Source: Clostridia bacterium (lineage in GTDB: Bacteria > Bacillota_A > Clostridia > Oscillospirales > CAG-382). Taken from it: a stretch of 9,186 bases of DNA. Both the position numbers and the translations under genes were made by a program. The notes under the pieces were generated by a model. That model saw only the letters and a program-made list of their open reading frames with translations. It made no database searches and was not told the DNA's origin. The DNA lies in assembly GCA_017517985.1 (NCBI GenBank), contig JAFWWX010000159.1:1-9186 (forward strand). The letters are read 5' to 3'. Shown piece after piece: positions 197 through 9,186 of this stretch (the first letter of the stretch is position 1; the number at the start of each line of letters is the position of its first letter).

Positions 197-1291
197 ATGT
201 TTGCAAAAACAGATATAAATACAGGCAGACAAGTGGAGCTTGATTATATGAAAGGCTTGTTTGTCCCTATGATTTTATTTATCCATGCGTTTCAGATGCT
301 GGGTGGTCCCAATACGATTGTGGCACCGTATGAAATCATTTATATCATTGCAACGATGACCGGCGCAGCAATTTTTATGTTCGTATTGGGCGTTGGCACT
401 GCATTTTCCGGAAAAAGTGATAAAGCACTTGCTCTGTATGGTGTAAAGCTTATTATAATGGAATTTTTATGGAATGCACTTTCGCTTGCATTGCCTATGG
501 TTTTAAGTCAGTTTTTCCGCATGGCAGCAGGACTCACACCTGCATGGGAAGAAACCATGATGCGCGTTCCTGTTATGCTAACATACATAAATGTATTCTT
601 TATTGCAGGGATGTGCTACCTTGTAATAGCACTACTGCGAAAATTAAGATTGCCGATGTTTGGGTATGCAGGATTGGGAGTATTGCTTTTTGTTATCAGT
701 CCGTTTCTTTATATGAATGACAAAACAACCGGGAATAAAATCGTTGACTATATACTTATGACATTTGTAGGCGGCAGAGATGCAGTTTCCTTAACCTTTA
801 TTTCCTTACTGCCGCATGCCTTGCTTGGTGTGAGCTTCGGCAAGTTGTTGCGTCGCACTAAAAATAAAGGCAAACTATACAGCATTTTGGCGCTTCCCCT
901 TTCCTTGATTGTGATTGGCTATTTTGTGTACGCAATTACAACACATACCGAGCTTTCGGCATTATATACCTATTCGGATATGGGCTATGTCTATCCCGGT
1001 ATTTTGCGTGCGTTTGCAAATGCATCAAGCGTACTCCTGCTTGCCGGTCTGTTGTATGCCCTTCGGAATATAATAGCAGGAAACAAAACCGTGCACAACT
1101 TTATTATGCAATTTTGCCGGAATAATACACCGTATTATGCAATACATCCGTTCTACTTTTGCTGTATCACGGCAACTGCGGCATATCTTCCCTTTTCAGC
1201 CGGATTCTGCAGCGCGATGTCTGTTGTAGTCGGTGTACTTTGCTATGGTACGATTTTTCTATGGCATCGCATTAAAAATAAAATTCGATAA
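197..1291 (+). CDS. Multi-spanning membrane acyltransferase-like protein
   Basis: This 364-residue protein is almost entirely hydrophobic, with roughly nine or ten likely membrane segments (for example about 19-37, 43-68, 84-106, 127-147, 153-172, 227-250, 313-333 and 338-358). The N-terminus has the pattern Arg11, Asp16, Gly20, His30 (RQVELDYMKG, then IH). This is typical of the broad membrane acyltransferase group that includes acyltransferase-3/OafA-type, OpgC-type and heparan-glucosaminide N-acetyltransferase-like proteins. A late YAIHPFYF stretch (314-321) also fits that group. Such proteins move acetyl or other acyl groups onto sugars, lipids or other acceptors at the membrane. The substrate here is unknown. 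The start is supported by AAGGAGG at 183-189, seven bases before ATG. It is followed 36 bases later by the LuxE-like gene without a visible terminator, so a role in decorating the cluster product is plausible but inferred. The exact subfamily is uncertain. Confidence 0.7.
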   Translation: MFAKTDINTGRQVELDYMKGLFVPMILFIHAFQMLGGPNTIVAPYEIIYIIATMTGAAIFMFVLGVGTAFSGKSDKALALYGVKLIIMEFLWNALSLALPMVLSQFFRMAAGLTPAWEETMMRVPVMLTYINVFFIAGMCYLVIALLRKLRLPMFGYAGLGVLLFVISPFLYMNDKTTGNKIVDYILMTFVGGRDAVSLTFISLLPHALLGVSFGKLLRRTKNKGKLYSILALPLSLIVIGYFVYAITTHTELSALYTYSDMGYVYPGILRAFANASSVLLLAGLLYALRNIIAGNKTVHNFIMQFCRNNTPYYAIHPFYFCCITATAAYLPFSAGFCSAMSVVVGVLCYGTIFLWHRIKNKIR

Positions 1292-1315
1292 TCATTTAAA
1301 AAGTATAAAAATAAC

Positions 1316-1319
1316 GAGG
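1316..1319 (+). promoter_or_regulatory. Ribosome binding site deciding the LuxE-like start
   Basis: GAGG lies eight bases before ATG 1328. Its last base is also the first base of an in-frame GTG (1319-1321), which is therefore too close to serve as the start. Confidence 0.75.
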
Positions 1320-1327
1320 TGATATTT

Positions 1328-2446
1328 ATGACTGCAAGACATGAACTTTTAAAACTTGAAGATGTTTATGACCACAATAATTCTTCAGAACTTTTCCTCG
1401 ATGCTATGAGGGAATGCCTTACACATCATATAGAAAATTGTGAATTTTTCAGAAAGTTGTGTGATGATGCGGGATTTAAGGTGGAGGATTTGAAAACAGA
1501 AGCAGATTTGGAAAAAATCCCACCGATTCATGCAAACTTTTTCAAACAGTATGAGGTGCTTTCTGTTCCCTATGAAACAATTACAGAGCGTGCAACAAGC
1601 TCTGGTACAGGCGGACAGAAAAGCCAGATGTTTTTTGATAAGGACAGCTTTGATTTTGGAAATTCTATGATAGAGAACGAGTTTCGCTATTATGGATTCC
1701 TTTCTGACGAACTTACCAATTACCTTCTCTTTACATATGAGCCTGCAGAAGTAAGTAAGGATTTAGGTACAGCAAAAACAGATGTGGGACTTTTAAGCTA
1801 TGCTCCCGTAAATGATACGTTTTTTGCTCTTCGTTATAATGGCGAGGGACACGATTTTGACGTTTACGGTACAATAGCGGCCTTAGAAGAATATGAAAGA
1901 CAAGGAAAGCCTGTCAGAATTTTTGGGTTCCCTTCATTTTTGTATTTTACAGTGAAACAAATGAAAGATACAGGACACAGACCGCTAAAGCTTAACACAA
2001 ATTCAATGACGCTGCTTGGCGGCGGATGGAAAGGCTATGCAGATAAGCAAATCAAAAAAACGGAACTTTATTCTCTTGTAGAAGAAATGCTTGGAATACC
2101 CGAGCAAAACTGTCGTGACGGTTATGGCTCGACAGAACACTCTGTTCCATACTTTGAATGTAAAAACCATCATTTCCACATCCCTGTGTACAGCAGAATG
2201 ATTATCCGTGATGTTGAAACATTAGAGCCTTTGCCGAACGGCACCCCGGGTTTTGCTAATTTCGTTACTCCCCATCTTATGAGCGTACCTGCTGTATCAG
2301 TTCTTATGGGCGATATGGCGGTGCTTCACGATGCAGAGGAATGCGGATGCGGTATCAAGACACCGTATATGGAAATCCTTGGCAGAGCCGGAACAAGCGC
2401 AACCAAAAGCTGTGCGATAAAAGCAAGCGAACTTCTGAAGAGATAG
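1328..2446 (+). CDS. LuxE-like acyl-protein synthetase (adenylate-forming)
   Basis: The protein has 372 residues, close to the usual length of LuxE. Members activate a carboxylic acid as acyl-AMP and transfer the acyl group to their own cysteine before passing it to the LuxC reductase. Visible motifs are the glycine/serine-rich phosphate loop TSSGTGGQKS (90-99), the adenylate-binding motif YGSTEH (266-271), GDMA (328-331) and LGR (351-353). Cys362, eleven residues from the end (SATKSCAIK), lies where LuxE carries its acyl-transfer cysteine. The N-terminus (CEFFRKLCDDAGF, then LEKIPPIH) is typical of LuxE/PaaK proteins. ATG at 1328 is preferred over an in-frame GTG at 1319 because that GTG overlaps the GAGG ribosome binding site (1316-1319). 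The stop is 11 bases before the LuxC-like fusion gene, its expected partner. No luciferase or LuxD is visible, so the acid it activates is unknown and need not be tetradecanoic acid. Confidence 0.88.
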   Translation: MTARHELLKLEDVYDHNNSSELFLDAMRECLTHHIENCEFFRKLCDDAGFKVEDLKTEADLEKIPPIHANFFKQYEVLSVPYETITERATSSGTGGQKSQMFFDKDSFDFGNSMIENEFRYYGFLSDELTNYLLFTYEPAEVSKDLGTAKTDVGLLSYAPVNDTFFALRYNGEGHDFDVYGTIAALEEYERQGKPVRIFGFPSFLYFTVKQMKDTGHRPLKLNTNSMTLLGGGWKGYADKQIKKTELYSLVEEMLGIPEQNCRDGYGSTEHSVPYFECKNHHFHIPVYSRMIIRDVETLEPLPNGTPGFANFVTPHLMSVPAVSVLMGDMAVLHDAEECGCGIKTPYMEILGRAGTSATKSCAIKASELLKR

Positions 2447-2449
2447 AGG
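2446..2449 (+). promoter_or_regulatory. Ribosome binding site deciding the LuxC-like fusion start
   Basis: GAGG begins on the last base of the luxE-like stop codon (TAG, 2444-2446) and is eight bases before ATG 2458. It rules against the in-frame start at 2341, which would lie inside the preceding gene without a comparable site. Confidence 0.75.
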
Positions 2450-2457
2450 TGAAATGC

Positions 2458-4932
2458 ATGATGGAATTTATTATAAGAGGTAAAAAAACCGCACTTGAAA
2501 AAGAACATTGTTTTAACGGAATAAACGAACAGATAAACAATGACCTTTCAAACGGAGTTTTAGATATAAGAAAGGCCATTTCAAGCCTTGATAAGCTTGG
2601 TCATTTTGTTGCCGAAAGTGAAACTTTTTTGGTTCCGGAACTCATGGAACTCGGCTTTTCAAAAGATGAGGCAATGCAGATAAAAAAAGACTCTCTTGCT
2701 GTTTTGTCGGAGAAAGAGCTTTACAAAAAGATAAACAGAGAGCTTGGCGGTCTTCCTTTTGAAATTTCCCGTCAGACAAGTCGTGAAGAACAGTTTGAAG
2801 GCTGGATGCCGGTTGGTGTTTTGGGCCATGTTACAAGCTCAAACGATGCAATGCTTCCGTTTTTCAGTTCTGTGGAAGGAATTTTAACAGGAAACATAAA
2901 TGTTATTAAAACGGCATCGGGGGCACACAAGGTTGCAATGAAGCTGATTGAAAAACTTTGCGAAGAAGACGAAAGTTTATGTCCGTATTTTTACGTATTT
3001 CCTCTTTCATCAAAAGATAAGGAACTTTTAACTGAACTTTTCAGTTTGTGTAACACAGTTGCGGTGTGGGGTTCTGACGGTGCAGTCCGTGGCGTAAGAG
3101 AACTTGCACCAAGCGGTGTAAATATCGTTGAATGGGGTAACAGAATAAGCTTTGCTTACTTCACAGAAAAGGGCTGCACAAAAGAAAGGCTGACAGGACT
3201 TGCACACGATGTATGTGTAAACGACCAGCAGGCGTGCAGTGCACCGCAGATTGTGTACTATGAAACGGATTCAAAAGAAGAGCTTTTGAAGTTTGCCAAT
3301 GATTTTTATACAGAGCTTCAGAAGGTATCGGATACCTATCCCCTTCATCCTATGACTCAGCCCGAAAAGGCTGAACTCACGGCACAAACCAAAATGTGCT
3401 ATCTTGAAGAAGTTATGGGGGATGCAAAACTTATTGACGGAAACGGATGCCGTTTGTTCGTCAAATTTGATAACGAACTTTGTGCATCGCCTTTGTACCG
3501 TACTGTTATAGTTAAAGGAATCAAAAGATGTGAGCTTATCAGCGTACTAAGGCCGTTCCGTTCGTATTTGCAGAGCGTTGGTCTTGCGTGCAGCACAGAG
3601 GAAATTGTTCCGCTTACAAACCTTTTGCTTGCCGGCGGTGTTACCCGTATAACAGAACCGGGACTTATGATGGGCGGATACACAGGAGAGCCCCATGACG
3701 GCGTTTTTGCCATGACACGCTATCTTAAAAGGGTAAGCTTTATCAACAGCGGGTTGCCTTCGGGAAGCATGTCGCTCAGCGAAATGAGCTCCGAGATAAG
3801 AAAACCTTTTGATAACGGCACTCCGTTACTTAAAAAAGACGAATTTCCTGCCGAAAGAGAAATTGAAGACGAAGGCTATCTTGTTCTAAAAAGCGGAGGC
3901 AGCAGCGGAAAAGCAAAATACGCACCCCACACATATGCCGATGCTGAAGTTACATATAAAGAAACAGGTCGTTTTATTATAGCCGCAGGCGTTAATCCTA
4001 AAAAAGATATCTGTATGAATCTGTTTTATTCAGGTGAATTGTACGGAGGCTTTATAAGCATATATGAAGCACTGAAAAGTGCTGAAATAATCCAGCTTCC
4101 CATGACTGCGGTTATGGATATGGAACGTATGGCAAACGAAATCGTGGAAAGCAAAGTAAATGTGCTTATGGGTATGCCTACATATCTTTTGAGACTGTTC
4201 TCAGAGCAGAAAGAAACCCTCCAAAATTATGGCGGCATTGACCTTGTACTCTACGGCGGAGAGCATTTTGACCCTGCACAGGCAGAATATATTAAAAAGA
4301 CATTTAATGTAAAAAGAATTGCCTCCATCACATACGGTTGCAATGAAATCGGTTCTATGGGATATGCCTGCGAGTATTGCGAGGGAAGCATTCATCACGT
4401 GGCACCAAGTAAATATCTTGAGATATTAAAACTTGATACTGATGAGCCTGCACCGTTCGGTGAGGTTGGCAGACTTGTATGGACCCCCATCAACCAGGAA
4501 AACACTCCTATTAAACGATATGAAATAGGAGACCTCGGCAGATTTGTGAAAGAACCGTGCAAATGCGGAAGACTTGCACCAAGATTTGAACTTTTGGGAA
4601 GATTCGGAGATGTTTTTAAATTTGCAACTAATTATGTAAATTATAAAACCATAAAATCCATTTTTGCGAAAAAAATGAACTATAACGGATGGCTTCAGGT
4701 TATTTTGTCCTATGACAAAGTAAGCGTAATGACGATTTGTGTTGAAACCGAGTTTGCTGATTCAGAATCGGGAGCCATTGAAATTCTTAAAAGTAATTAT
4801 CCTGAAATTAATGAAAGCTTAACAGATAAAACAGGTATTGTAAACATTGTGAAACAGGATAAAGACCGCTTTGAGCTTAGCTTACGCGGCGGAAAGGTAA
4901 GAAGCGTAATAGACAAAAGGAATAAGAATTAA
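2458..4932 (+). CDS. LuxC-like acyl reductase fused to a PaaK-like adenylate-forming domain
   Basis: This 824-residue protein has two domains. Residues 1 to about 430 match the LuxC acyl reductase family. They contain a Gly-rich nucleotide-binding stretch (GWMPVGVLGHVTSSND, 115-130), GNINVIKTA (145-153) and the catalytic cysteine Cys260 in QQACSAPQ (257-264). LuxC reduces an enzyme-bound acyl group, or acyl-CoA, to an aldehyde with NADPH. Residues about 470 to 824 form a PaaK-type (phenylacetate-CoA ligase-like) domain: phosphate loop KSGGSSGKAKY (478-488), YGCNEIG (626-632, Glu630), YEIGDLGRF (688-696, Asp692), a CKCGR cysteine pair (701-705) and LLGRFGD (712-718). The domains are joined in one open frame by a linker near 430-470. 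The frame is open back to 2341, but the start is placed at ATG 2458, eight bases after GAGG (2446-2449) and 11 bases after the luxE-like stop; ATG 2461 is an alternative. The second domain may supply acyl groups to the first, or reload the aldehyde or acid; this is inference. Confidence 0.9.
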   Translation: MMEFIIRGKKTALEKEHCFNGINEQINNDLSNGVLDIRKAISSLDKLGHFVAESETFLVPELMELGFSKDEAMQIKKDSLAVLSEKELYKKINRELGGLPFEISRQTSREEQFEGWMPVGVLGHVTSSNDAMLPFFSSVEGILTGNINVIKTASGAHKVAMKLIEKLCEEDESLCPYFYVFPLSSKDKELLTELFSLCNTVAVWGSDGAVRGVRELAPSGVNIVEWGNRISFAYFTEKGCTKERLTGLAHDVCVNDQQACSAPQIVYYETDSKEELLKFANDFYTELQKVSDTYPLHPMTQPEKAELTAQTKMCYLEEVMGDAKLIDGNGCRLFVKFDNELCASPLYRTVIVKGIKRCELISVLRPFRSYLQSVGLACSTEEIVPLTNLLLAGGVTRITEPGLMMGGYTGEPHDGVFAMTRYLKRVSFINSGLPSGSMSLSEMSSEIRKPFDNGTPLLKKDEFPAEREIEDEGYLVLKSGGSSGKAKYAPHTYADAEVTYKETGRFIIAAGVNPKKDICMNLFYSGELYGGFISIYEALKSAEIIQLPMTAVMDMERMANEIVESKVNVLMGMPTYLLRLFSEQKETLQNYGGIDLVLYGGEHFDPAQAEYIKKTFNVKRIASITYGCNEIGSMGYACEYCEGSIHHVAPSKYLEILKLDTDEPAPFGEVGRLVWTPINQENTPIKRYEIGDLGRFVKEPCKCGRLAPRFELLGRFGDVFKFATNYVNYKTIKSIFAKKMNYNGWLQVILSYDKVSVMTICVETEFADSESGAIEILKSNYPEINESLTDKTGIVNIVKQDKDRFELSLRGGKVRSVIDKRNKN

Positions 4933-4937
4933 GGAGG
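4931..4937 (+). promoter_or_regulatory. Ribosome binding site for the exporter gene, overlapping the upstream stop
   Basis: AAGGAGG overlaps the TAA stop (4930-4932) of the LuxC-like fusion and is seven bases before ATG 4945. This arrangement favours coupled translation of the two genes. Confidence 0.8.
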
Positions 4938-4944
4938 ACATAAA

Positions 4945-6648
4945 ATGGCAAATTCATTCAGCGTTAAACGAAGCCCTCTTGTAACTAAAACATTTCTGTC
5001 AATTCTTGTCCCCACTATTCTTATGAATCTGACAACGGCAATCGGCTCAATGGCAGATACAGTAATAATAGGTCAGTATCTTGATGACTTGTCCCTTTCG
5101 GTTGTAACTTATGCAACGCCGATTTATATGGTTATCAATACAATTGCCGCTTTATTTGCTATCGGCGGTTGTATCGCCGTAAGCGTTGATACAGGAAAAG
5201 GCGAAAAGACAAGTGCCAACAGAGCATTCAGTATGTCTGTCATCTGTCTTGTGTTCTTATCTATGCTTCTGTTTTTTGCAGGTGTGTTTTTCACTAAACA
5301 GATAACAGTTATGCTTGGTGCGGGAAATGAGCTGGTCTTTTACAAAGTAATGTCATATGTTCGCATTATCTTATTGGGCGCACCTATCTTTATATTAAAC
5401 ATTTCATGTGCATTTTTTGTGAGAAATGATGGCAGACCCACACTTTCGATGGTAGGGATGATTTCATCTATGGGGATAGATATTATATTAAATCTTGTAT
5501 TTGTGGGATTTATGAGCATGGGCGTTGCCGGTGCGGCTATCTCTACGGTTATAGGCAAAGGTGTGGGATTGGTGATTGTGGGAAGTCACCTTTTCTCAAA
5601 AAAGAACACACTTAAATTCTGTTTTTGCTTTAACTCTTCGGTTTGGCGTATTATAAAAAACGGAATTGGCTCAGCACTTTCCTTTGTGTATCAGTTTGTG
5701 ACTATTATTATAATGAATCACTATGTAGTTCAAATAAGCGGACCCGAAGGCATTGTAATATATACCGTTGTGTTTAATTTGTGCACAGTATCTCTTGCAG
5801 TTTTTGAAGGTCTTAGCCAGACTATACAGCCAATGGTCAGCCTTTACTTCGGAGAAAAAAGCAACAAGAAAGTAAAAGACAGTGTAAAGCTTGCAATACT
5901 TTCTGCTGTTATAATATGCGGAAGTGTTATGGCTGTGCTTGAAGTCTTCCCTTCTATTGTGCCTCATATGTTCGGCATCTGTGAAGCCGGTTTGGTCAAT
6001 CAGGCTTCTCTTGCAGTAAGAATCTATACTACAAGTATGTTTATTATGACGCTGAACGTGATAATCGGAAATTATCTTCAGTCTATCGAACTTGGCCCTG
6101 TAACAAGTATTCTGGTAAGCCTCAGATGTTGCGTTTTGCTTTTGGTATGTGTGTTTATTTTAGGCGAGCTTTTCGGATTAGGCGGAATATGGGCGGCGTA
6201 CACAGTAGCAGAAATTCTTACATTTATGGTATTTATAGCCATCAACATAATAAAAAGAAAAAAACTCTCCAAAAACAATGTAAGTGCCGATATATTCTTC
6301 CTTGACAAAAAGGTTGAAGAAAGCTGTGAGTCGTTAGTTTATAAATGCAACACAAATGAGTATGAGAGATTTTGTAATGAGATAAAGATTCTTGCTGACA
6401 AAATTTCAATTTATAATGAGAAAATGCTTGTTACGGCTTTAGAGTATTTGTCAAAGCTTAAGGATGTTATAGTAGATAAAAACGGAAAATATATTGAGGT
6501 TGAGTTTAACGCCTGTGATGAAAAAATAATTATAAGCGATAATTTAAGTCATGATAAGTTGAAAGATGATATTGCCAAAATCACAGATGAAGGCATAGAG
6601 TACGGACCCGTTCTCGGCCTTAACAGAATTTGCATTAAAAGGAGCTGA
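4945..6648 (+). CDS. MATE-family exporter with a degenerate GHKL-ATPase-like C-terminal extension
   Basis: Residues 1 to about 437 are a typical MATE (multidrug and toxin extrusion) transporter, a cation-driven exporter in the cytoplasmic membrane with about twelve membrane helices. Family-like landmarks are IGSMADTVIIGQY (33-45), NDGRPTLSM in the first half (161-169), GVAGAAISTVIG (193-204), and the repeat of this plan in the second half with EGLSQTIQPMVSLYFG (288-303) and GLGGIWAAYTVAE (411-423). MATE proteins are usually about 450 residues, so residues 440-567 are extra. That tail is soluble and resembles an anti-sigma/histidine-kinase-type ATPase fold: a helix with ALEYLSKL (498-505), then beta strands IEVEF and KIIISDN (527-533), and a closing GLNRICIKRS (558-567). 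Catalytic residues look lost. The start follows AAGGAGG (4931-4937), which overlaps the preceding stop. It probably exports the cluster product. Confidence 0.88.
   Translation: MANSFSVKRSPLVTKTFLSILVPTILMNLTTAIGSMADTVIIGQYLDDLSLSVVTYATPIYMVINTIAALFAIGGCIAVSVDTGKGEKTSANRAFSMSVICLVFLSMLLFFAGVFFTKQITVMLGAGNELVFYKVMSYVRIILLGAPIFILNISCAFFVRNDGRPTLSMVGMISSMGIDIILNLVFVGFMSMGVAGAAISTVIGKGVGLVIVGSHLFSKKNTLKFCFCFNSSVWRIIKNGIGSALSFVYQFVTIIIMNHYVVQISGPEGIVIYTVVFNLCTVSLAVFEGLSQTIQPMVSLYFGEKSNKKVKDSVKLAILSAVIICGSVMAVLEVFPSIVPHMFGICEAGLVNQASLAVRIYTTSMFIMTLNVIIGNYLQSIELGPVTSILVSLRCCVLLLVCVFILGELFGLGGIWAAYTVAEILTFMVFIAINIIKRKKLSKNNVSADIFFLDKKVEESCESLVYKCNTNEYERFCNEIKILADKISIYNEKMLVTALEYLSKLKDVIVDKNGKYIEVEFNACDEKIIISDNLSHDKLKDDIAKITDEGIEYGPVLGLNRICIKRS
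6640..6644 (+). promoter_or_regulatory. Ribosome binding site for the GNAT fusion gene, inside the exporter gene
   Basis: AGGAG lies in the last codons of the exporter gene, just before its TGA (6646-6648), and nine bases before ATG 6654. Confidence 0.75.
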
Positions 6649-6653
6649 AAGCT

Positions 6654-8105
6654 ATGAACAAAAGGAAACTTGCATCGCTTGAGATAACCAATGATAAAGG
6701 ATTTATTTTCCCTGTAATGAGTTTTATAGATTCATTGGTACAAAGGCACACATCCGTTGATGCAAGCAGATATCAGCAAATCAGGTTTGTAGCGCTTGAA
6801 GTATTAAAACAAAGAATCGAAAATTCCTATCCCGGCTCTAAAGGCGATATATTTGTTGAACTTTATATTGTGGGCGATTTCTTTGAAATCTCAGTAAGAG
6901 ATAAAGGTATACCGGGATGGCAGGATTTTTCGTTTGATAAAAACGGAATTTCAGAGAACAAAAAAGACTTGCGCAATTATATGATCAGCCTCTTTGTTGA
7001 CGAAATCGGTATGGAAAAGCTTGGTTCTGAGGGACAAAGAGTTTTTGTGCGTAAAAAGATTCTTAATCCCCTTAACTTTGTAAAGCCTGAGCCATATGAG
7101 GAAACTGCCATACTGGATACGAACATAACAATTCGCCCTGTTGTAACTGAGGCAGATGTTATTGAAGCTATTCGCTGTATTTACGCTGAATACGGTTATT
7201 CCTATTCTTATGAAAGACTCTATTATGTAAATTCATTTATGTCACTTATTAAAAGCGGCGAAATTATGTCATTTTTAGCTGTAAATGACCACGGTCAGAC
7301 AGCCGGACATTTTTTACTTGCATTTTCTGATTTGTATAAGAACATGCCTGAAGTTTCCACGGTAGTTGTCAAGAAAGAATTCAGGGGACTTGGATTATTT
7401 GCTAAATTTATGAACTATTGCGATGAAGTCGGAAAAGAACATGGATTCCGTGCGTTGATGGGTCAGCCGGTTACATTTCATCCAATGTCACAAAAGGCAT
7501 TTTTAAGAGCGGGTTATACCGCAACATCACTTTTAATGTCTTACATAAATCCTGAAATCGAAAGCGAATATAACAAGGACGGTGAAAGACTGGGGCTTAG
7601 CGTAAGTGTGAAAATGCTTGACGAAGATGCTTTCAGTAAGATTTATGTACCGGAAGAAATCAAGGATTTTGCTGACAAAATATATAAAAGACTTGGTATG
7701 AAATATGAAATGTGTCAAAGCAGCGAAAAAGATGATTTTACACAAATGTCTGCTGAAACAAGCACCGCCCTCAAAATGTCGAAAATTATTGTTCGCAGTG
7801 CAGGAGATGAGCTTGAAGATGAGTTCAGACAGGCCATTATGGATGCCATAAAGAAAAAGAGCGAAATGATAGAGCTTGTTCTTTGCCTTAATTCCAGGAG
7901 CTGCGCTTATGCCTATGAAACTGCAAAAAAATGTGACTTTTCTCTCTCGGGTATCATCCCCGGTGCTGAAAACGGAGATTACATTATTATGCAGATGCTT
8001 CTGGGAGACAAGATGGACTATAATAAGCTTGTACTTGTAGGAGAATTTGAAGAGTTAAGAAGCGACATTGTTAATATAGTAAAATGCAGTAAGGAGGAAA
8101 AATAA
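6654..8105 (+). CDS. GHKL-ATPase-like / GNAT / GNAT-like fusion protein
   Basis: The protein has 483 residues and no membrane segment. Residues about 1-135 look like an anti-sigma-factor-type (RsbW/HATPase) domain: FVALEVLKQRIENSY (45-59) stands in the place of the N box, SVRDKGIPG (80-88) resembles the G1 motif with Asp83, and GQRVFVRKKI (127-136) is the closing strand. The usual Mg-binding Asn, four residues after Glu49, is Gln53, so ATP hydrolysis is doubtful. Residues about 155-300 are a GNAT acyltransferase domain, with beta strand STVVVKKEFRGLGLF (235-249) giving the acyl-CoA-binding loop and KAFLRAGYTAT (281-291) the late motif. Residues about 376-460 resemble the second half of another GNAT domain (VLCLNSRSCAYAYETAKKC, 409-427). 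The start is supported by AGGAG (6640-6644), nine bases before ATG, overlapping the end of the exporter gene. GNAT enzymes move an acyl group from CoA (or a carrier protein) to an amine. The acceptor is unknown. Confidence 0.8.
   Translation: MNKRKLASLEITNDKGFIFPVMSFIDSLVQRHTSVDASRYQQIRFVALEVLKQRIENSYPGSKGDIFVELYIVGDFFEISVRDKGIPGWQDFSFDKNGISENKKDLRNYMISLFVDEIGMEKLGSEGQRVFVRKKILNPLNFVKPEPYEETAILDTNITIRPVVTEADVIEAIRCIYAEYGYSYSYERLYYVNSFMSLIKSGEIMSFLAVNDHGQTAGHFLLAFSDLYKNMPEVSTVVVKKEFRGLGLFAKFMNYCDEVGKEHGFRALMGQPVTFHPMSQKAFLRAGYTATSLLMSYINPEIESEYNKDGERLGLSVSVKMLDEDAFSKIYVPEEIKDFADKIYKRLGMKYEMCQSSEKDDFTQMSAETSTALKMSKIIVRSAGDELEDEFRQAIMDAIKKKSEMIELVLCLNSRSCAYAYETAKKCDFSLSGIIPGAENGDYIIMQMLLGDKMDYNKLVLVGEFEELRSDIVNIVKCSKEEK
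8091..8097 (+). promoter_or_regulatory. Ribosome binding site for the last ligase gene, inside the GNAT fusion gene
   Basis: AAGGAGG is embedded in the codons for the last residues (KEEK) of the GNAT fusion and is ten bases before ATG 8108. Confidence 0.75.
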
Positions 8106-8107
8106 TT

Positions 8108-9186
8108 ATGAGCTATAAAACTTATACACCGGGGGAAATCATTAAGTTTGCAAGAGAAAATTCACCTTATTATAAGGAACTTTATAAGTCCCTTCCCGAG
8201 GATGTAACCTTGGAGCAGCTTCCGCTTATTGACCAGAAAGATTTTTGGAACAACTGCGACAAACACGGTGGCAAGGTGGCAACCGCACAGCAAACTGACG
8301 GACAGGTTTTTAAAAGCGGCGGTACTACCGGTGACCCTAAGTATTCTCTGTATACAGCTGAGGAATGGCAGGGTATGTGTGAAGCGTGCGGTGCTCTTCT
8401 CCCTAAAGGCGGACTTACAAACGGAGCCAAGATTGCCAACCTATTTTATGCAGGCGGTATGTATGCAAGCTTTTTATATACTTACAGCATGCTCTATTTT
8501 TCACCTGCAAAAACAATTATGTATAACATTTCGGGAAACGGTGCAATCAGCGAAATGGCTGAAACTATCCTCGACCATCAGATTAACTGTATAGCAGGTC
8601 TGCCCTCTATTATCACACAGATTGCCGCCTATATAGACGAGCACAAGCTAACGGGCTTTAATGTTGATACAATTTACTTTGCCGGAGAAACCTTCTATCC
8701 CGATCAGAGAGAAAGAGTTTGTAAAACATTCGGACGTGACCTTGATTTCCGCTCAGTGTTTTTTGCTTCTAATGACGGCGGTCCAATCGGTTATTATGCC
8801 ACCGATTGCGGATATAACGAACATCATGTAATGAGCGATCTTACACTTATGGAAATTATTGACCCGGACACAGGAGAAGTTATTACAGAAATGAACCGCC
8901 CGGGTGAAATATATATTACATCACTTTTCAAAACCCTGATACCTCTTCTTCGTTATCCTTGCGGTGACATGGGAGAATACACACAGCCTGAAGGTGTGCC
9001 TGACAGAAAATTCAGACTTTTAGGCAGAGCACAAACAGCTGCAAAAGCAGGATATGTTTCGATTTCACCACAGGATATTGCAGATGTACTTAATATTGCG
9101 TCAATCAGCTATGATGCATATCAGATTATTGTAACGCATGATATGAAAGATAAGTTTACATTTAAGATTGCAGTTTCCGATCCTGA
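8108..9186 (+). CDS. PaaK-like adenylate-forming ligase (3' end outside window)
   Basis: The frame is open from ATG 8108 to the window end, giving 359 visible residues of a protein expected to be somewhat over 400. The start (MSYKTYTPGEIIKFARENSPYYKEL) and the following LPLIDQKDF (38-46) are typical of phenylacetate-CoA ligase-like and LuxE-like enzymes. The phosphate loop is FKSGGTTGDPKYS (68-80), followed by GLPS (164-167), AGETF (192-196), LLRYPCGDMGEY (280-291, Asp287) and LLGR (304-307). The adenylate-binding motif, usually YGxxE, reads FFASNDGGPIGY here (218-229), so the usual Glu may be replaced by Asp223. The expected reaction is ATP-dependent activation of a carboxylic acid to acyl-AMP, then transfer to CoA or another thiol. 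The substrate cannot be read from sequence. The ribosome binding site AAGGAGG (8091-8097) lies inside the preceding gene and the stop-to-start gap is two bases, so translation is probably coupled. Confidence 0.85.
   Translation, partial: MSYKTYTPGEIIKFARENSPYYKELYKSLPEDVTLEQLPLIDQKDFWNNCDKHGGKVATAQQTDGQVFKSGGTTGDPKYSLYTAEEWQGMCEACGALLPKGGLTNGAKIANLFYAGGMYASFLYTYSMLYFSPAKTIMYNISGNGAISEMAETILDHQINCIAGLPSIITQIAAYIDEHKLTGFNVDTIYFAGETFYPDQRERVCKTFGRDLDFRSVFFASNDGGPIGYYATDCGYNEHHVMSDLTLMEIIDPDTGEVITEMNRPGEIYITSLFKTLIPLLRYPCGDMGEYTQPEGVPDRKFRLLGRAQTAAKAGYVSISPQDIADVLNIASISYDAYQIIVTHDMKDKFTFKIAVSDP

Follow-up and report, generated by a model that had tools for sequence, protein, structure and literature searches.

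Leupeptin and other peptide aldehydes inhibit proteases of the serine and cysteine classes. A leupeptin operon, leupABCD, was reportedly described by Li et al. in 2020 for Klebsiella michiganensis/oxytoca, Photorhabdus and Xenorhabdus. According to the accessible parts of later papers, leupeptin is made by separate AMP-dependent ligases and a reductase without an NRPS (PMC11212599, reporting Li et al. 2020), the peptide acid is reduced by an ATP-supported enzyme (PMC7714073), and the gammaproteobacterial leupeptin route is distinct from NRPS routes (PMC10548850). Passages of two further papers describe leupABCD as a marker of K. michiganensis (PMC8283571) and leupeptin-derived pyrazinones as bacterial signals and as acting on a human histamine receptor (PMC11480411). 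Another described system to which the present locus can be compared is the lux fatty acid reductase of luminous bacteria, which supplies aldehyde to luciferase and whose LuxC-LuxE structure is 7xc6. The operon analysed here very probably represents, in Clostridia, a variant of the NRPS-free leupABCD route to leupeptin, with an N-acyl peptide aldehyde as product.

The window (the whole stretch of DNA that was analysed, 9,186 nucleotides) carries six genes arranged head-to-tail on the + strand with small gaps, and the open reading frames lie where the preliminary description had placed them. A membrane gene (gene 1, 197-1291) ends 36 bases upstream of luxE; the five genes from luxE on are separated by 11, 12, 5 and 2 bases. 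The first of the five codes for a LuxE-like acyl-adenylating enzyme (leupA-like; 1328..2446; PF04443, 1.6e-42). ATG 1328 is the preferred luxE start because the protein of a related locus, L052, starts at the matching residue. The next gene (2458-4932) encodes a fusion, LuxC-AMP, of a LuxC reductase part (leupB-like; 2458..3780; PF05893, 1.1e-74), which was aligned to LuxC of 7xc6, and a PaaK-type AMP-binding part (3865..4932; PF00501, 3e-10). It is followed by the genes of a MATE exporter with an extra C-terminal domain (4945..6648; PF01554 (MatE), 1.6e-25), of a HATPase-like/GNAT fusion (6654-8105) and of a PaaK-like adenylate-forming ligase cut by the window end (8108..9184). For the fifth gene of the window the HATPase_c_2 and GNAT matches (6e-4 each) stayed under the curated Pfam cut-offs, as did the AMP-binding match of the sixth (PF00501, 5e-5); in a structure model of the fifth protein both the HATPase and the GNAT fold are visible. 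By position, the GNAT acyltransferase domain (residues 157-330; 7122..7643) is leupD-like and the ligase leupC-like. The numbers of promoter-like (25 against 26.8 in shuffles) and terminator-like matches (7 against 6.9) in the window were uninformative on transcription either way, and Rfam at gathering scores gave nothing in the window. A role in anti-phage defence was rejected, as no PADLOC family was matched at 1e-3 by the six proteins.

The preliminary description had suggested a search for the same gene order in related genomes. Order and strand from luxE to paaK were kept in all three loci long enough to show them: the window, L003 (on a 49 kb contig of a Ruminococcus MAG) and L052, the gaps in the latter two ranging from -1 to 22 bases. 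At L053 luxE and luxC-AMP are followed by the contig end, and two contigs of 4-5 kb (L001 and L002) carry parts of the operon. The dN/dS ratio was 0.03-0.10 in luxE and luxC-AMP and 0.21 in part of mate; these are the comparisons in which it was computable, synonymous sites being saturated in the genes of the GNAT fusion and the ligase. The kept order and strand together with these ratios represent conservation beyond chance. The conserved unit thus consists of five genes, coding for LuxE, the LuxC-AMP fusion, MATE, the GNAT fusion and the PaaK-like ligase. Flanking genes run through Pfam vary by locus, uvrB and a peptidase gene standing beside L052. At L053 (3754-6526, genome G584) genes for aspartate-semialdehyde dehydrogenase, dapA and dapB lie on the same strand, with luxE following after 65 bases; the other loci differ in this respect.

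Gene 1 was rejected as a member of the unit. It had been counted as part of a six-gene operon, but it does not adjoin luxE in L003 or L052, and the label "membrane acyltransferase-like" was not confirmed, as no Pfam or NCBIfam family was matched at E 0.1. In L002 gene 1 does stand before the operon parts. Synonymous divergence between the window and L002 is much lower for gene 1 (pS 0.17) than for luxE and luxC-AMP (0.48), which suggests that gene 1 had another history and that a recombination boundary lies before luxE.

Related gene sets were found in other phyla. When 72,556 plasmid records were searched at the protein level, the fusion matched 126, and in six of these at least 80% of it is present with 31-38% identity: two records of one Streptantibioticus cattleyicolor strain, two of Streptomyces and two Salmonella enterica plasmids. 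The same six ranked best among the 122 records matched by the PaaK-like ligase and the 61 matched by LuxE. They represent four lineages (one strain occurs twice and the Salmonella copies are 99.8% alike). The gene order in Streptomyces NBC_00158 is PaaK, MFS, GNAT, LuxE, LuxC-AMP, and tblastn located the same five genes in the other two Streptomyces-type loci. On the Salmonella plasmids, which are of the IncF type (L077:13641-19399 and L078), the order is LuxE, LuxC-AMP, PaaK, GNAT, then transposase genes, with no exporter between; the GNAT stretch of L078 consists of two open reading frames and is unannotated as a gene. The Salmonella cluster, searched in near mode, had no match among E. coli genomes. 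The GNAT link is weak: a profile of the GNAT fusion matched the Salmonella GNAT at 6.8e-5 and missed that of Streptomyces. One PaaK match in Burkholderia stagnalis (H31) was discarded, as it sits among unrelated genes.

A profile built from four plasmid fusion proteins matched 525 proteins, including some from Klebsiella michiganensis, Erwinia, Morganella, Providencia, Mixta, Yersinia, Burkholderia and Chromobacterium, among others. This set could be connected to leupABCD through the primer leupB_r, which is printed in the accessible part of PMC8283571 and encodes EQLKDH. EQLKDHA occurs in 66 of the best 120 of the 525 fusion proteins, 65 times at residue 47 and once, in a shorter protein, at residue 23; EQLKDH was absent from the other 240 proteins compared. 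The peptide is carried by the fusion of K. michiganensis P0266 and is missing from at least one protein (P0256) that bears the same species name. The span of leupABCD calculated from the coordinates printed in the same source is 5,831 bp; the four Salmonella genes together occupy 5,759 bp. By these coordinates leupB starts at about 316,482, leaving about 1.08-1.13 kb, the size of a LuxE gene, for leupA, the start of which is uncertain because the leupA_f primer coordinates are inconsistent by two bases. Judged from these matches, the LuxC-AMP fusion very probably corresponds to leupB; leupA, leupC and leupD were assigned to window genes by size and order only.

leupABCD resembles the window operon in its LuxC-AMP fusion, in the LuxE-sized gene directly before the fusion and in the space left downstream for PaaK and GNAT. 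The Klebsiella insertion also includes an adjacent transporter, and the non-NRPS route by ligases and a reductase, as outlined in the available text of PMC11212599, would fit the window genes, as would the other published route descriptions. The two differ in that MATE and GNAT are placed between LuxC-AMP and PaaK in the window, MATE has an extra domain, GNAT stands behind a degenerate SpoIIAB-like domain, and the hosts are anaerobic Clostridia. Compared with the leup-type sets, the window fusion shares only 31-38% identity with those of Salmonella and Streptomyces and has another motif near the ligase active sites. In the literature on LuxC/LuxE in the gut or in biosynthesis and on leupeptin biosynthesis, covered mostly without subscription papers, no Clostridial leup-type operon was found; such operons may be included in Li et al. 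2020. What is new here is the patchily distributed Clostridial version and the degenerate anti-sigma-like domain on its GNAT protein and probably also on its exporter.

The relationship was examined in trees. In the AMP-domain tree (35 rows, rebuilt without the long-branched L027 and with L080 added) the fused domains formed one clade (16 rows, 98/97), in which the window domain grouped with proteobacterial domains, that of K. michiganensis P0266 included, and with Streptomyces fused domains. The PaaK-like ligases of the window, L003, L052, Salmonella and three Streptomyces loci made up a second clade (7 rows, 100/98), and 12 ordinary Clostridial PaaK ligases stood apart. An earlier tree with 13 ordinary PaaK ligases (12 of the 23 PaaK-type loci L014-L036 and one ligase of L060) gave the same grouping. 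The LuxE tree (26 rows; L064 has no LuxE row) united the window, L003, L052, L053, Salmonella, the three Streptomyces loci and the stand-alone L085 in one clade (100/99), with the other 17 stand-alone rows outside. Thus LuxE, the fused AMP domain and the PaaK-like ligase of the window group with the leup-type proteins and are separated from ordinary Clostridial PaaK and from most stand-alone LuxE proteins.

The LuxC-domain tree is weaker evidence than these two, because its grouping was clean only after L085 and L086 had been dropped. With all 42 rows (L068, whose LuxC is split in two open reading frames, was outside the tree) the fusion label needs three changes and the stand-alone Clostridial LuxC proteins are the sister group of the Clostridial fusions, so that the tree was not accepted as proof of a single origin of the fusion. 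After removal of L085 and L086, both on long branches, a single split (99/98) separates fusion from stand-alone proteins.

Stand-alone LuxE-LuxC two-gene units are common; they were seen in Clostridia (L054-L063, L065-L069) and on a Chloroflexota plasmid (L084), with varying neighbours. The Clostridial pairs resemble the operon in having LuxE beside LuxC, but lack the fused AMP domain and have a QLLC-type instead of the QQAC motif, and, by similarity to the window genes, neither the PaaK nor the GNAT of the operon adjoins them.

The catalytic residues of both enzymes are conserved. Cys362 of LuxE (2411-2413) aligns with the cysteine near the C-terminus of LuxE in 7xc6, which we take to be the acylated cysteine, and is present in all 26 LuxE rows. 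The catalytic Cys260 of LuxC (3235-3237) lies in the QQAC motif, which occurs in 24/24 fusion rows, in 119 of the best 120 of 325 relatives of the window fusion and in 118 of the best 120 of the 525 leup-type profile matches; stand-alone Clostridial rows have QLLC, QLYC and similar motifs. A late Gly-Lys, presumably with a functional role in these ligases, was found in 16/16 fused domains and 5/5 full-length PaaK rows.

Both catalytic cysteines are conserved, the structurally characterised relatives are the LuxC and LuxE proteins of 7xc6, and the operon proteins belong to the fold families of these two. One could therefore suppose that the pair, like that of luminous bacteria, produces a long-chain fatty aldehyde, which is then condensed or modified by other enzymes. 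The preliminary description had argued along this line, and LuxE/LuxC pairs do stand with fatty-acid genes in flagellar glycosylation islands according to the available text of two papers (PMC7874193, PMC4522980). The scores, however, are far below the NCBIfam equivalog cut-offs (103.7 against 550 bits for LuxE, 74.3 against 750 bits for LuxC), and, unlike the lux system, the operon has an AMP domain fused to LuxC and no luciferase: a Bac_luciferase domain (PF00296) was found in none of five related carrier genomes, all of them possibly incomplete (the control was found in 10 of 14). The partner genes moreover are those of the leup-type sets, and the five genes include no acyl carrier protein or ketosynthase. 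The fatty aldehyde was therefore set aside as highly improbable. What stands of the preliminary description is a biosynthesis-and-export operon around LuxC/LuxE without luciferase and an aldehyde with some other fate; the product class, which it had left unnamed, can be specified as leupeptin-type, very probably a peptide and not a fatty aldehyde.

The operon thus very probably makes and exports a small peptide aldehyde, a leupeptin-like inhibitor of proteases. The gene set, its order, its leup-type kinship, the catalytic residues and the exporter can be read from the sequence, and a four-step route may be drawn from them. The GNAT domain would acylate a free amino acid. Next, carboxylates would be adenylated by the PaaK-like ligase and by the AMP domain of the LuxC-AMP fusion, and these two would form two amide bonds, yielding an N-acyl peptide acid. 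LuxE would adenylate this acid and carry it as a thioester on Cys362, from which it would be transferred to Cys260 of LuxC and reduced with NAD(P)H to the aldehyde. Finally MATE would export the peptide aldehyde. We infer in this scheme the bond made by each ligase, the amino acids, the acyl group and the action of LuxE/LuxC on a peptide acid. Three adenylate-forming modules would suit the three carboxyl activations (two amide bonds, one reduction) of a leupeptin-sized product. For an operon whose product was formerly unknown the product class has become directly testable, and LuxC-AMP fusions accompanied by LuxE, PaaK and GNAT provide a search rule for NRPS-free peptide-aldehyde pathways.

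The peptide need not be acetyl-Leu-Leu-argininal. After the A5 tyrosine the Clostridial fusions have YGCNEIGS and the leup-type ones YGS(V/T)D; the corresponding motif of the PaaK rows is NDGGPIGY in Clostridia and VDAGL in the leup-type proteins. With such differences near the ligase active sites, the Clostridial substrates may differ from the leup-type ones. Other substrates would also be compatible with an end product that is not a tripeptide aldehyde but a different N-acylated small aldehyde or a cyclised follow-up (an amino aldehyde, pyrazine or pyrazinone), and leupeptin is converted to pyrazinones in Klebsiella and Photorhabdus, as stated in the accessible portion of PMC11480411. The conserved five genes, however, contain no extra cyclising or cleaving enzyme, and we regard such an end product as improbable.

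At L085 (805-5011), on Streptomyces europaeiscabiei plasmid NZ_CP109155.1, an MbnB/TglH/ChrH-type (DUF692) RiPP enzyme is encoded directly upstream of a LuxE-LuxC pair; the locus possibly makes a RiPP with a reduced C-terminus. As this LuxE falls inside the leup-type clade, LuxE and LuxC of the window might likewise be thought to act on a ribosomally made precursor peptide. Against this, no precursor-sized gene was seen among the open reading frames of at least 60 amino acids inside the operon, and ligases and GNAT accompany LuxE/LuxC across phyla. A ribosomal precursor appears the least probable of the readings considered, and the leupeptin-type route is preferred.

Close relatives of the operon proteins are numerous in the protein database. 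Among 7990 scored candidates 325 fusion relatives were found at E <= 0.001, the best 120 being 71-92% identical over their full length; for the GNAT fusion there were 211 relatives among 7997 candidates (best 120 at 52-94% identity). Among sampled species genomes, in contrast, the operon is rare and scattered. A single-protein scan of genome contigs gave three loci only. Strong matches were found in 4 of 391 sampled species genomes of the class of G003, one of them G003 itself; G003 was the only one in 394 genomes of its order and in 300 of its family, where 207 had a weaker LuxC or ligase match. Further draws, several of the genome draws overlapping, gave 1/2, 1/21, 2/16, 2/31 and 1/4. The patchy distribution suggests horizontal transfer of the operon among Clostridia; for the two short contigs, L001 and L002, misbinning is possible. 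Phage records searched with the GNAT fusion gave no match. With its anaerobic gut hosts and many close metagenome relatives, the operon may point to a source of leupeptin-type compounds in animal guts that has attracted little notice.

The GNAT fusion begins with a domain (residues 1-136; 6654..7061) of the anti-sigma (SpoIIAB/RsbW) fold and, in the structure model, ends with a third, alpha/beta domain (7644..8105). In SpoIIAB/RsbW kinases the N-box Asn and the glycine-rich G2 box serve ATP binding; both are lost in the window, L003 and L052, so that the operon version is degenerate. The C-terminus of the MATE protein (6253..6645) resembles SpoIIAB/RsbW by fold only, and comparison with the HATPase profile gave no sequence support; from the modelled fold, the exporter probably carries a degenerate anti-sigma-like domain, too. 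One may speculate that in this transferred gut Clostridial operon, making a peptide aldehyde other than leupeptin, the catalytically dead domains dock the acyltransferase and the exporter on each other or on a regulator, whereby capping and export would be coupled or under the control of the product. We consider this combination rather unlikely; if true, the SpoIIAB fold would thereby have a novel role within an assembly line for natural products.

HATPase-GNAT fusions were also seen outside this operon, in more distant relatives (L081:9432-10910, L082:9001-10545 and L083:8887-10395). In these the N-box Asn and the G2 box are present. At L081 and L083 the fusion adjoins a gene for a 1002-residue protein, which in L081 has HEAT repeats and a cNMP-binding domain.
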